Made by a program: the position numbers and the translations under genes. The notes under the pieces are model-generated. The model saw nothing but the letters and a program-made list of their open reading frames with translations, ran no database searches and was not told the origin of the DNA. A DNA stretch of 43,821 nucleotides, taken from positions 1 through 43,821 of the forward strand of contig WLOF01000003.1 in NCBI GenBank assembly GCA_009699375.1, read 5' to 3'. This stretch comes from Actinomycetota bacterium (lineage in GTDB: Bacteria > Actinomycetota > Actinomycetes > Nanopelagicales > Nanopelagicaceae). Of this stretch, positions 18,180-33,043 are shown piece by piece; within the stretch, counting starts at the first letter, position 1; each line of letters starts with the position of its first letter.

Positions 18180-20834
18180 TTACAAAAGTGAGCGGAGCAC
18201 GTACTGCATGATGCCACCGTGGCGGTAATAATCAGCCTCGCCTGGAGTGTCAATCCTAACTTTCGCAGTAAAACTCTTCCCATCGGCAGTCACGGTAACT
18301 TCCTTTGGCACTCCCCCAGAATTCATCGCAGTAATGCCTGAAACAGTAAAAGTTTCACTACCGGTTAGACCGAGTGAACTTGCACTTTCTCCCTCTTTGA
18401 ATTGCAAGGGTAGAACGCCCATTCCAATTAAGTTAGAGCGGTGGATTCTTTCGTAAGATTGCGCGATAACAACACGCACGCCAAGCAGCGCAGTTCCTTT
18501 TGCTGCCCAGTCTCTTGATGAACCTGATCCATATTCTTTGCCGGCCAAAATAACAAGTGGAATATTTGCACTTTGATAAGCCACTGACGCATCGTAAATG
18601 CTGCTCTGGTTACCGGAGTCCAAGAAGTTTCTCGTGAACCCACCTTCAACTCCATCAAGCAATAAATTCTTGAGTCGAATATTTGCAAATGTTCCGCGAA
18701 TCATTACTTCGTGGTTACCACGGCGTGAGCCATAAGAGTTGAAGTCTTTGCGGTCAACTCCATGATCGGTTAAATACTTTCCAGCTGGAGAATCGGCTTT
18801 TATATTGCCAGCAGGTGAAATGTGGTCAGTAGTTACTGAGTCCCCCAAAATTGCCAAGACGCGAGCGTTAGCAATATCTGTTAACGGGAGTGGGGTTCGA
18901 GGCATCTCATCAAAATAAGGAGGCTTACGAACATAAGTAGATTGAAGATCCCACTCAAAGGTTTTCCCAGTTGGAGTATCTAGTGATTTCCAGCGATGAT
19001 CGCCATCAAAAACACTCGCATAATCTTTAGTAAACATTTCTGAAGAGATTGCTGATGAGATTACTGAATCAATTTCTTGAGCACTTGGCCAAATATCGCG
19101 AAGGTAAACAGGATTACCTTGTAAGTCATTTCCCAGAGAATCCTTCTCGAAATCATGATCCATAGTGCCGGCAATTGCATAAGCAACTACGAGTGGTGGT
19201 GAAGCTAGGTAATTCATCTTTACATCCGGGCTAATTCGCCCTTCAAAATTGCGATTACCTGACAGAACCGCAGTGACCGCAAGATCGTGTTCGTTTACAG
19301 CCTTGCTTATTTCAACTGGCAGTGGGCCAGAATTTCCGATGCAGGTGACACACCCATAACCAACTAAATTGAACCCTAATTTTTCCATATATTGCGTGAG
19401 GTTTGCTCGATCGTAATAGTCAGTCACAACTTTAGAACCAGGAGCAAGCGTTGTTTTGACCCAAGGCGCTGAAGTGAGTCCTTTTTCAACAGCTTTCTTA
19501 GCAAGCAGTGCTGCGCCGATCATTACTGAAGGGTTGGAAGTATTGGTGCACGAAGTAATGGATGCGATGACTACGTCACCATTTTTAACCGTTGTGGCCT
19601 TTTGATTGACTTTGATATCAATAGGCGAACGATTAGTTTTTTCTGAAAAATAAGTTGGAAGAGAAGTTGCAAGTGCAGATTTAGAATTAGTGAGTGAGAT
19701 TCGATCCTGCGGGCGTTTAGGCCCAGCGATCGACGGAACAACTGTCGAGAGGTCGAGTTCGATATGTTCCGAAAAGCGTGGTGAATGAGATGGGTCATGC
19801 CACAAGCCCTGTTTCTTTGCATATTCTTTTACTAGTTCAACTTGTTCTGCAGTGCGTCCAGTTAATTCGAGGTAACGAAGCGTTTCTTGATCAATAGGGA
19901 AAATCGCGCAGGTCGAACCGTATTCAGGGCTCATATTTCCGATTGTGGCGCGATTGGCCATAGGTACTTCTACAACGCCTGGTCCATAGAACTCTACGAA
20001 TTTTCCAACAACACCGTGCTTACGCAATGACTCTGTAATTGTTAAGGCTAAATCAGTCGCAGTCGTACCCACTGGCATCTGTCCACTGAGTTTGAACCCA
20101 ACAACTCGAGGAATCAACATTGAAACTGGCTGGCCAAGGAGTGCTGCTTCGGCTTCGATGCCACCTACTCCCCATCCGAGCACGCCGAGTCCATTGACCA
20201 TGGTTGTATGCGAATCAGTTCCAACAACAGTATCTGGATATGCTCGCAAAACTCCATTAACTTTACGCGTCATAATTACTCTTGCTAAAAACTCTATATT
20301 TACTTGATGGACGATTCCGGTCCCTGGAGGAACAACTTTAAATTCGTCAAATGCACCCTGTCCCCAGCGCAAGAAACGATAACGCTCACGGTTACGTTCG
20401 TATTCGATATCCGTATTTTGAACAAACGAATCCTTAGTACCAAAAACATCTGCAATAACAGAATGATCAATAACCAATTCTGCTGGTGCAAGTGGATTTA
20501 CTTTCGAAGGGTCTCCACCGAGGTCTACAATTGCCTCACGCATGGTTGCCAAATCTACGATGCAAGGAACGCCAGTGAAATCTTGCATGATTACGCGTGC
20601 AGGAGTGAATTGAATTTCAGTATCTGGCTCAACCGATGGGTCCCACTCTGCCAACGCTTTAATATGCTCGGCGGTGATATTTGCGCCATCTTCGGTGCGT
20701 AACAAGTTCTCTAATAAAATCTTCAAGCTAAAGGGCAGATCGTGAGCACCTTCAATGCCAGAAATATCAAAAATTTCATAGCTCTCACCGGAAAGCGTCA
20801 GCGTGCTTTTTGACTTGAAGGAATCTTTACTCAT
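18180..20834 (-). CDS. acnA: Aconitate hydratase A
   Basis: An 884-residue aconitase/IRP1-type enzyme that isomerises citrate to isocitrate in the TCA cycle. The Fe-S ligands are in [11 protein letters not shown] and [12 protein letters not shown]. Also visible are [24 protein letters not shown] and, in the swivel domain, [13 protein letters not shown] and [17 protein letters not shown]. The ribosome binding site GGGGAG stands three bases before the ATG, so this is a leadered gene. A perfect 18-bp palindrome lies 30-47 bases upstream of the start and overlaps the end of the preceding methyltransferase gene. It is a likely regulator site. Confidence 0.95.
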
Positions 20835-20863: not shown

Positions 20864-20881
20864 TATCTTGACGTCAAGATA
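20864..20881. promoter_or_regulatory. Perfect 18-bp palindrome upstream of acnA
   Basis: TATCTTGACGTCAAGATA is identical on both strands. It starts 30 bases before the acnA ATG and spans the stop codon (20874-20876) of the upstream methyltransferase gene. A perfect dyad this long at this position is best explained as the operator of a dimeric regulator of acnA. It contains TTGACG, which could also act as a -35 box, but I see no good -10 at 17 bases. Confidence 0.65.
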
Positions 20882-22097
20882 CCTTATTTTTCTTCTTTTG
20901 TGAAGGTTCAAAACGAGCAACGCACTCGACATGGTGCGTCATAGGGAAAAGGTCAAAAGCCCGTAGCTCTTTCATTTCGAATCCCAATTCTGATAAGTAA
21001 CTCACATCTCGCGCCAAACTTGCTGGGTCGCACGCTACATAAATGATTTCGCGAGGGCGCTTTCTAGCAATTTTTTCCACAATATCTTTTCCGGCGCCCT
21101 CACGCGGCGGATCAAGAATCACGACATCAACCTCGGCAAGTGAATTGAGAACTTTTGCAACATCACCAGGATGAACACGAATGTTAGGAATAGTTGAAAA
21201 ATTTCGACGTGCATCAGCAATTGAAGTACTACCTGACTCCACTAAGTCAACGCTTCCCAGCGGGCCTATTTGATTGATTATGGCTGCAGTAAAGAGGCCA
21301 ACGCCCCCGTAAAGATCGAATACGCGATCGCCTTCCTTAACGCGAACAAGAAGAACATCTATCAATGTGTCAGGGGCGCTTCGATGGCTTTGCCAAAAAG
21401 ATTGTTGACTTACCTCGAGTGGGTAACCATCAATAGTTTCTTGCGTAACTGCAGGACCTTGCGTCATGCGCGGCTTAGATCCACGTTCTGATCCAGCAAT
21501 AGCAATGGAGGTTTCGCCAGATGTCGGCGATGTTATTTCTACTCGTGAATGAGCAGGCCATTTACGCGCCGACAGCTCATTAAATTTCATCTCACTTACT
21601 GCAATGAGGCAGTCATCGACCTCAACTACGTTATGAGTCCGGGATGCGTAAAATCCGAGTTTTCCTTGGGCTGAAGTAGCACTAGAAACACGCGTTCTCC
21701 AATGGAGGCTGTCGCCAACTTCTTCAACAACAATATCAATCTCCATTTTCGCAAGACGCTTAAATTGCTCTCGTATAACATCTGCTTTCAAAATGCGTTG
21801 ACGACCGATAGTGATGTGTTGAAAATCGCAACCTCCGCAGCCGCCTGGTTTGGCATATGCACACGGTGGAGTAATTCGATCAGGAGAGGCTTCAATTACT
21901 TTTATTACATCTGCTCTACTAAAGCTTGACCCTGGCGCAGTCACCTCAACTTCAACGGTTTCCCCGGGAATTGCATGGCGAACAAAAAAGACTTGATCCT
22001 CATGCCTGGCAATAAAGTGACCTCCGTGGGCCACCTTTTCAATTGATGCAACAAAACGTTGACCAGTACTCATGGGTTTTCCGCGTTGCGTCGTCAT
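20874..22097 (-). CDS. TRAM-domain class I SAM-dependent RNA methyltransferase (RumA/TrmA family)
   Basis: A 407-residue RNA uridine C5-methyltransferase. An N-terminal TRAM domain (about 12-70) binds RNA. A cysteine cluster, CAYAKPGGCGGCDFQH, resembles the Fe-S site of RlmD/RumA. The Rossmann domain holds VFDLYGGVGLFTAAI, DVVILDPPREGAGKDIVEKI and the nucleophile motif YVACDPASLARDV. Whether the target is 23S rRNA or tRNA cannot be settled. The start at 22097 has a TAGGCT -10 eight bases upstream; an in-frame ATG at residue 9 is an alternative. In many actinobacteria this gene neighbours trkA genes, as here. Confidence 0.88.
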   Translation of the reverse strand: MTTQRGKPMSTGQRFVASIEKVAHGGHFIARHEDQVFFVRHAIPGETVEVEVTAPGSSFSRADVIKVIEASPDRITPPCAYAKPGGCGGCDFQHITIGRQRILKADVIREQFKRLAKMEIDIVVEEVGDSLHWRTRVSSATSAQGKLGFYASRTHNVVEVDDCLIAVSEMKFNELSARKWPAHSRVEITSPTSGETSIAIAGSERGSKPRMTQGPAVTQETIDGYPLEVSQQSFWQSHRSAPDTLIDVLLVRVKEGDRVFDLYGGVGLFTAAIINQIGPLGSVDLVESGSTSIADARRNFSTIPNIRVHPGDVAKVLNSLAEVDVVILDPPREGAGKDIVEKIARKRPREIIYVACDPASLARDVSYLSELGFEMKELRAFDLFPMTHHVECVARFEPSQKKKNKVS

Positions 22098-32519: not shown

Positions 32520-32984
32520 CTACCTAGAGAGCAGCGCCGCTTGCGAAGAAATCTCTTCTTTGGACAATGGATGTAGACATTGTCCAATCAGCCAACGCAG
32601 GGCCAACTCCCTCTCAGGGACAGAGGGCAGCACTGACTCAAGCCCGGCCCGAATGCGAGGCCAGAGTTCATCCTGGGCGCTGGAAAGCATCTGCGCGAGC
32701 GCACCAGGATCTGTACGTCGAAGTGTGGCGAGCGCTGAATCACTGGAGATGCGCCACGCAATGGCTTCTAATGAGTGGGCCTGATGGAAAAGCTCATCTA
32801 CTTCGCTCTCTAAAAGTGCACGCAGTACTGCATCTTTATCTCGGAAGTGGTTGTACAACGTTGCTCGAGAAACTTGCGCAGTGTCGGCAATATCAATCAT
32901 TGTCGCTTTATGTAATCCGCCCACTGAAATAAGGCTTTTGGTGCCTTCTAGAATTGCAGTTCTTGTACGACGGAATGATGTCAT
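32520..32984 (-). CDS. TetR/AcrR-family transcriptional regulator
   Basis: A 154-residue TetR-type repressor. The N-terminal helix-turn-helix reads RTRTAILEGTKSLISVGG, then TMIDIADTAQVSRATLYNHFRDKDAVL. The C-terminal helical domain is short and would hold the ligand pocket; its ligand is unknown. The frame continues to a GTG at 33038, but the -10 TACCTT exactly six bases before the ATG at 32984, and the typical family start, favour the shorter form. It sits between clgR and recA, where many actinobacteria carry DUF3046 instead. Confidence 0.83.
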   Translation of the reverse strand: MTSFRRTRTAILEGTKSLISVGGLHKATMIDIADTAQVSRATLYNHFRDKDAVLRALLESEVDELFHQAHSLEAIAWRISSDSALATLRRTDPGALAQMLSSAQDELWPRIRAGLESVLPSVPERELALRWLIGQCLHPLSKEEISSQAALLSR

Positions 32985-32990
32985 CTGACG

Positions 32991-32996
32991 AAGGTA
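32991..32996 (-). promoter_or_regulatory. -10 element (TACCTT), leaderless tetR gene
   Basis: TACCTT on the minus strand is six bases before the ATG at 32984. It decides against the upstream GTG at 33038. Confidence 0.55.
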
Positions 32997-33043
32997 GGGC
33001 TCGGCTTTACTTGATTCCAAATTATCAGTGCTGGGCACTGTTT

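Follow-up and report, generated by a model that had tools for sequence, protein, structure and literature searches.

The closest described system is the TamR regulon of Streptomyces coelicolor. There TamR is a MarR-family repressor of citric-acid-cycle genes, that of aconitase included, and citrate and trans-aconitate relieve the repression (PMC5487221). A second source (PMC6391409) describes TamR as responsive to citrate-like compounds but not urate, and names PecS as its paralogue; the urate-responsive proteins PecS, HucR and MftR form a MarR branch related to TamR. The S. coelicolor regulon reportedly includes the tamR-tam pair and the aconitase gene sacA (Huang & Grove 2013, Huang et al. 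2015), and the locus described here shares with it an aconitase target and a regulator that is orthologous by sequence. The TamR circuit is already known, and its reduced form in small-genome actinobacteria is a variant. AcnR of Corynebacterium glutamicum, a TetR repressor dedicated to aconitase, resembles the role proposed here for TamR in acting at an actinobacterial aconitase promoter, but it belongs to a different protein family. A literature search for the cores of the dyad together with aconitase or actinobacteria found no paper, and a search on freshwater actinobacteria, MarR proteins and aconitase gave nothing relevant among the matches listed.

The window, that is the whole stretch of 43,821 nucleotides analysed here, contains only one perfect palindrome with a length of 16 or 18 bp, which lies in front of acnA (Table 1). 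As the sequence-only reading had noted, TATCTTGACGTCAAGATA is self-complementary across all 18 bases, takes in the stop codon of the gene before acnA (the TGA of the methyltransferase gene) and has no T-run after it. That reading placed the palindrome 30 bases before the aconitase ATG; the position before acnA stands, and the spacing to the ATG at 20834 is counted as 29 bases.

Table 1. Features of the acnA upstream region, in window coordinates
Feature	Position	Strand	Sequence or basis
18-bp perfect dyad, predicted TamR operator	20864..20881	.	TATCTTGACGTCAAGATA
acnA, aconitate hydratase, 884 aa, predicted controlled gene	18180..20834	-	NCBIfam TIGR01341 above cut-off
RlmD/TrmA-type RNA methyltransferase gene, upstream of acnA	20874..22097	-	TIGR00479 above cut-off
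Predicted -35 hexamer	20899..20904	-	TTCACA; consensus scan only
Predicted -10 hexamer, 17 bp from -35, = upstream half of dyad	20876..20881	-	TATCTT; consensus scan only

Base composition predicts 0.17 perfect 18-bp palindromes per window, and when the window was shuffled with its dinucleotides kept, 7 of 60 shuffles contained at least one. The earlier statement that such a dyad is unlikely by chance holds only in part: one per window is unremarkable, and it is recurrence and conservation that remove chance. The expectation for the 300 bases before any one gene is 0.001. When the whole assembly of the source genome (947,721 bases, 74% complete) was searched at up to 3 mismatches, two dyad sites were found, against none for a reversed-pattern control, so that the many random occurrences about which the earlier reading had worried are not seen. 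Both sites precede citric-acid-cycle genes. The second (C48:4000-4017) sits 27 bases before mdh, the malate dehydrogenase gene, which is followed on the same strand by icd; the gene preceding this site differs from the one preceding the acnA site. Aconitase, isocitrate dehydrogenase and malate dehydrogenase catalyse steps of one cycle, and in 2015 Huang and colleagues reportedly counted mdh, isocitrate dehydrogenase and malate synthase among the TamR targets of S. coelicolor. The proposal of a regulator dedicated to aconitase has to be given up: the same dyad stands before mdh-icd here, and before tam/tamR, icd or pntA in relatives.

Conservation was examined in a survey of 60 genomes, the source genome and its relatives, of which 44 contain a dyad match at up to 2 mismatches. 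Within the family of the source genome (G000-G036, the source genome being G000), acnA has an assessable upstream region in 26 dyad-bearing genomes (25 with TamR, and G019), and every one of these regions retains all 16 arm bases. The two central bases of these sites vary (TA 13, CG 9, TG 2, CA 2). Across these sites, whose preselection at up to 3 mismatches works in favour of the arms, the arms reach a mean majority identity of 1.00, compared with 0.63 for the 20 bases upstream and 0.55 for the 16 bases downstream; the comparison of the dyad with its flanks upstream of acnA orthologues, which the sequence-only reading had proposed as a check, thus comes out in its favour. The corresponding values for 24 mdh sites, preselected in the same way, are 0.98, 0.75 and 0.55. 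The mdh upstream region has a site within 2 mismatches in 26 of 26 assessable cases in the family (the 24 sites, G007 and G018); in G012 the region is divided by a contig end, and the site is visible on L090. When anchored on the gene, the upstream regions of acnA separate clearly into a group with 0-2 mismatches and another with 6-9, and a single region has 3. The site of G032, a genome without a TamR orthologue, is GTGCTTGATTTCAAGATA, located 26 bp before acnA (L158); it has 3 mismatches, with one half intact and one broken, and looks like a decaying operator.

A chance palindrome without function is scarcely credible. About 3.8 perfect 18-bp palindromes are indeed expected in 947,721 bases, but chance does not account for conserved arms between variable flanks, for a second copy before mdh or for the absence of the dyad together with TamR. 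Chance is ruled out because the two genome sites, against none for the control, both precede citric-acid-cycle genes and because the dyad is conserved in relatives. The dyad is a real, conserved feature and a predicted operator.

The palindrome contains the methyltransferase stop codon, and it could also be read at the RNA level, as a hairpin by which the methyltransferase mRNA is terminated or protected. This is very improbable, since the terminator scan, which looks for a GC-rich stem, a loop and a T-run, gives no terminator at the dyad, and an Rfam search of the window matched no family. Furthermore, a perfect 18-mer has no loop unless its central pairs break, and the same dyad is found before mdh behind a different gene. 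The arms of the acnA sites are invariant in the family, and thus offer no compensatory change that would favour pairing.

The dyad co-occurs with TamR. A search of the 60 genomes for TamR gave 38 read as carriers (at least 54% identity), among them partial or broken copies (partial in G002 and G008, two pieces with a stop in G003), and 22 read as lacking an orthologue. Fifty-four genomes of the class entered the comparison; those left out were G002 and G049, in which acnA is cut by a contig end, G040, G045 and G046, which have no acnA match at E<=1e-30, and G050, in which acnA was unsearched. All 36 of the 36 genomes with a TamR orthologue have a dyad with no more than 2 mismatches before acnA, as against 1 of the 18 without, counts that are inflated by relatedness. 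The single non-carrier, G019, is 84% complete and has both dyads, TamR not being found; its near-identical sister G008, near-identical in acnA too, carries part of a tamR gene where a contig ends. None of the 14 genomes without TamR that were examined has the dyad upstream of mdh. Well-supported branches provide four independent pairs, of which three differ in the same way, none in the opposite way and one shows no difference; the three informative pairs are too few for significance.

The dyad is very probably the operator of TamR, a predicted MarR-family homodimer. A dimeric regulator in front of acnA, as the sequence-only reading suggested, is supported, and the regulator which that reading did not recognise is most likely TamR. 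With this, a citric-acid-cycle switch in small-genome actinobacteria would have both its regulator and its sites named, and the dyad motif can be used across the class. It is improbable that another dimeric regulator binds the dyad, e.g. a TetR protein like AcnR or a different MarR protein. The source genome does have, in L019, a second MarR-like protein that exceeds the Pfam cut-off, and a TetR-like open reading frame was recognised by eye at 32520-33038, but the dyad tracks the TamR orthologue, and proteins of the L019 type, 24-31% identical to TamR, occur also in genomes without an acnA dyad (G025, G026, G027, G029 and G034). In Corynebacterium the acnR gene adjoins acn, whereas here acnA has no such neighbour and is followed by dxs. 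Near the second MarR gene lies, at L019:1937-2440 (minus strand), a gene for a lysine/alanine-rich repeat protein that has a histone H1-like tail with KKRRKKAAAK units.

The TamR orthologue of the source genome, P0001 (G000:C56:19511-19999), is a protein of 163 amino acids that exceeds the Pfam cut-off for MarR_2. It is 61% identical to a TamR that itself is 98% identical to the TamR of Streptomyces sp. LUP30, the value found for the TamR of G054; its identity to tam-linked TamR proteins is only 57-65%. G054 belongs to the same class as the source genome, which is accordingly an actinobacterium. The mean column identity in an alignment of 14 TamR-type proteins is 71%. The wing sequence of this alignment is DGRG in the rows of the family and DRRG or DRRA in the other rows, and three of the five family rows are also two residues short ahead of a conserved W. 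In the tree, the TamR rows are not separated from paralogues with support, and long branches meet. The solved chains most similar to TamR, 8ylh and 8ylf, are named only as MarR-family or regulatory proteins. The MarR chains of PDB entries 5dd8/2fbk, which we take to be HucR, match a TamR profile at about 70 bits. The P0001 gene adjoins an IspE-like open reading frame, as is also the case in L023 and L054 (ispE named by eye), and has a tRNA-Gln gene upstream.

Outside the family, the dyad is found at tamR itself. The sites of L022, L023, L027, L052 and L054 have a MarR-family gene on one side and, divergent from it, a methyltransferase gene on the other. Both methyltransferases tested exceed the cut-off of NF010703 (trans-aconitate 2-methyltransferase); this is the tamR-tam arrangement. 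In relatives with adjacent tamR and tam, the dyad lies between the two genes at up to 3 mismatches in nine of nine cases. Ten of the 11 tamR loci outside the family have an upstream dyad at this threshold, and the eleventh, that of G037, has 4 mismatches.

A larger set of Streptomyces-type loci was obtained by a search with the 14-protein alignment, and comprises the best 80 of at least 590 confirmed relatives, from named genomes. In 79 of these best 80 loci tam is divergent from tamR. The best match in the spacer has 0, 1, 2, 3 or 4 mismatches in 2, 29, 28, 18 and 3 loci, respectively, i.e. 77 of the 80 are within 3. The common form in the spacers is TATCTYGACGTCAAGAGA, and the Streptomyces tamR-tam spacers carry the same dyad as the acnA site of the source genome; the identity of the operator rests on Streptomyces other than S. 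coelicolor. The spacers of L198-L277 often contain extra, weaker copies of the dyad in 15-bp steps (33, 48 and 63 bases before tamR), which form a tandem overlapping array.

The family differs from S. coelicolor in two respects. Firstly, tam is absent from the source genome and from all family genomes searched (0 of 27), whereas it is present in 10 of the 12 TamR carriers outside the family. Secondly, none of 22 tamR loci of the family has the dyad upstream, the best matches having 6-8 mismatches. Since both tam and the tamR dyad are gone, only acnA and mdh-icd seem to be left in the circuit of the family, and tamR seems to be no longer autoregulated by the dyad. The source genome differs from the S. 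coelicolor regulon also in having two sites only, with the acnA site on the predicted -10 box. The other members of the family have genomes of 1.0-2.2 Mb. The TamR circuit outlives its namesake gene tam. Because the circuit is kept without tam, citrate is likelier to be the conserved signal than trans-aconitate detoxification.

The location of the acnA site suggests how it could act. A consensus scan of the acnA strand found a single sigma-70-like promoter, TTCACA-17-TATCTT, with 0.2 expected in shuffles. Since the upstream half of the dyad coincides with the predicted -10 hexamer, the likely mechanism is a simple one in which TamR represses at the promoter; if the predicted promoter is right, the simplest reading is that the polymerase is excluded. 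Each TamR subunit would read one TATCTTGA half, and TamR on the dyad would cover the predicted -10 box and the start point of acnA and thereby exclude RNA polymerase. Citrate, and possibly trans-aconitate, might build up, for example, when aconitase suffers damage to its iron-sulphur cluster or when flux backs up. Citrate bound to TamR would loosen the protein from DNA, and acnA and mdh-icd would be raised together. For this genome we infer TamR binding, the dimer, repression and the ligand alike. The mdh sites of the family have the upstream half TATCTT in 22 of 24 cases and the downstream half TATCTT in 3 of 24, and the upstream halves suggest that these sites, too, can be read as overlapping a promoter. 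Tentatively, and with somewhat more doubt than confidence, TamR might have been freed here from both tam and autoregulation, and might serve as an unregulated citrate sensor of acnA and mdh-icd only, its operator fused with the acnA promoter in a minimal one-input switch.

Some relatives have sites at other genes. In G001:C65 (L070) and G003:C32 (L071), both of the same genus, a dyad with 1 mismatch at 1501-1518 lies 69 bp before pntA, whose product exceeds the cut-off of NF006942 (NAD(P) transhydrogenase alpha). G005 and G035 have a 3-mismatch dyad before pntA, and the upstream match has at least 5 mismatches in the other 25 of the 29 genomes with a pntA upstream region examined; pntA was therefore rejected as a general member of the regulon. 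Because it is absent elsewhere, the pntA site of G001 and G003 is a recent gain or a remnant. G027, with two sites and no TamR, was considered as an exception and rejected: both matches are asymmetric 2-mismatch sequences, neither lies before acnA or mdh, and the best matches upstream of these genes have 6 and 7 mismatches, respectively. G055 has a dyad site before icd. In G058, in which no tam was found, acnA and tamR are divergent neighbours, and the dyad (L125, G058:C181:8600-8617) is situated between them.
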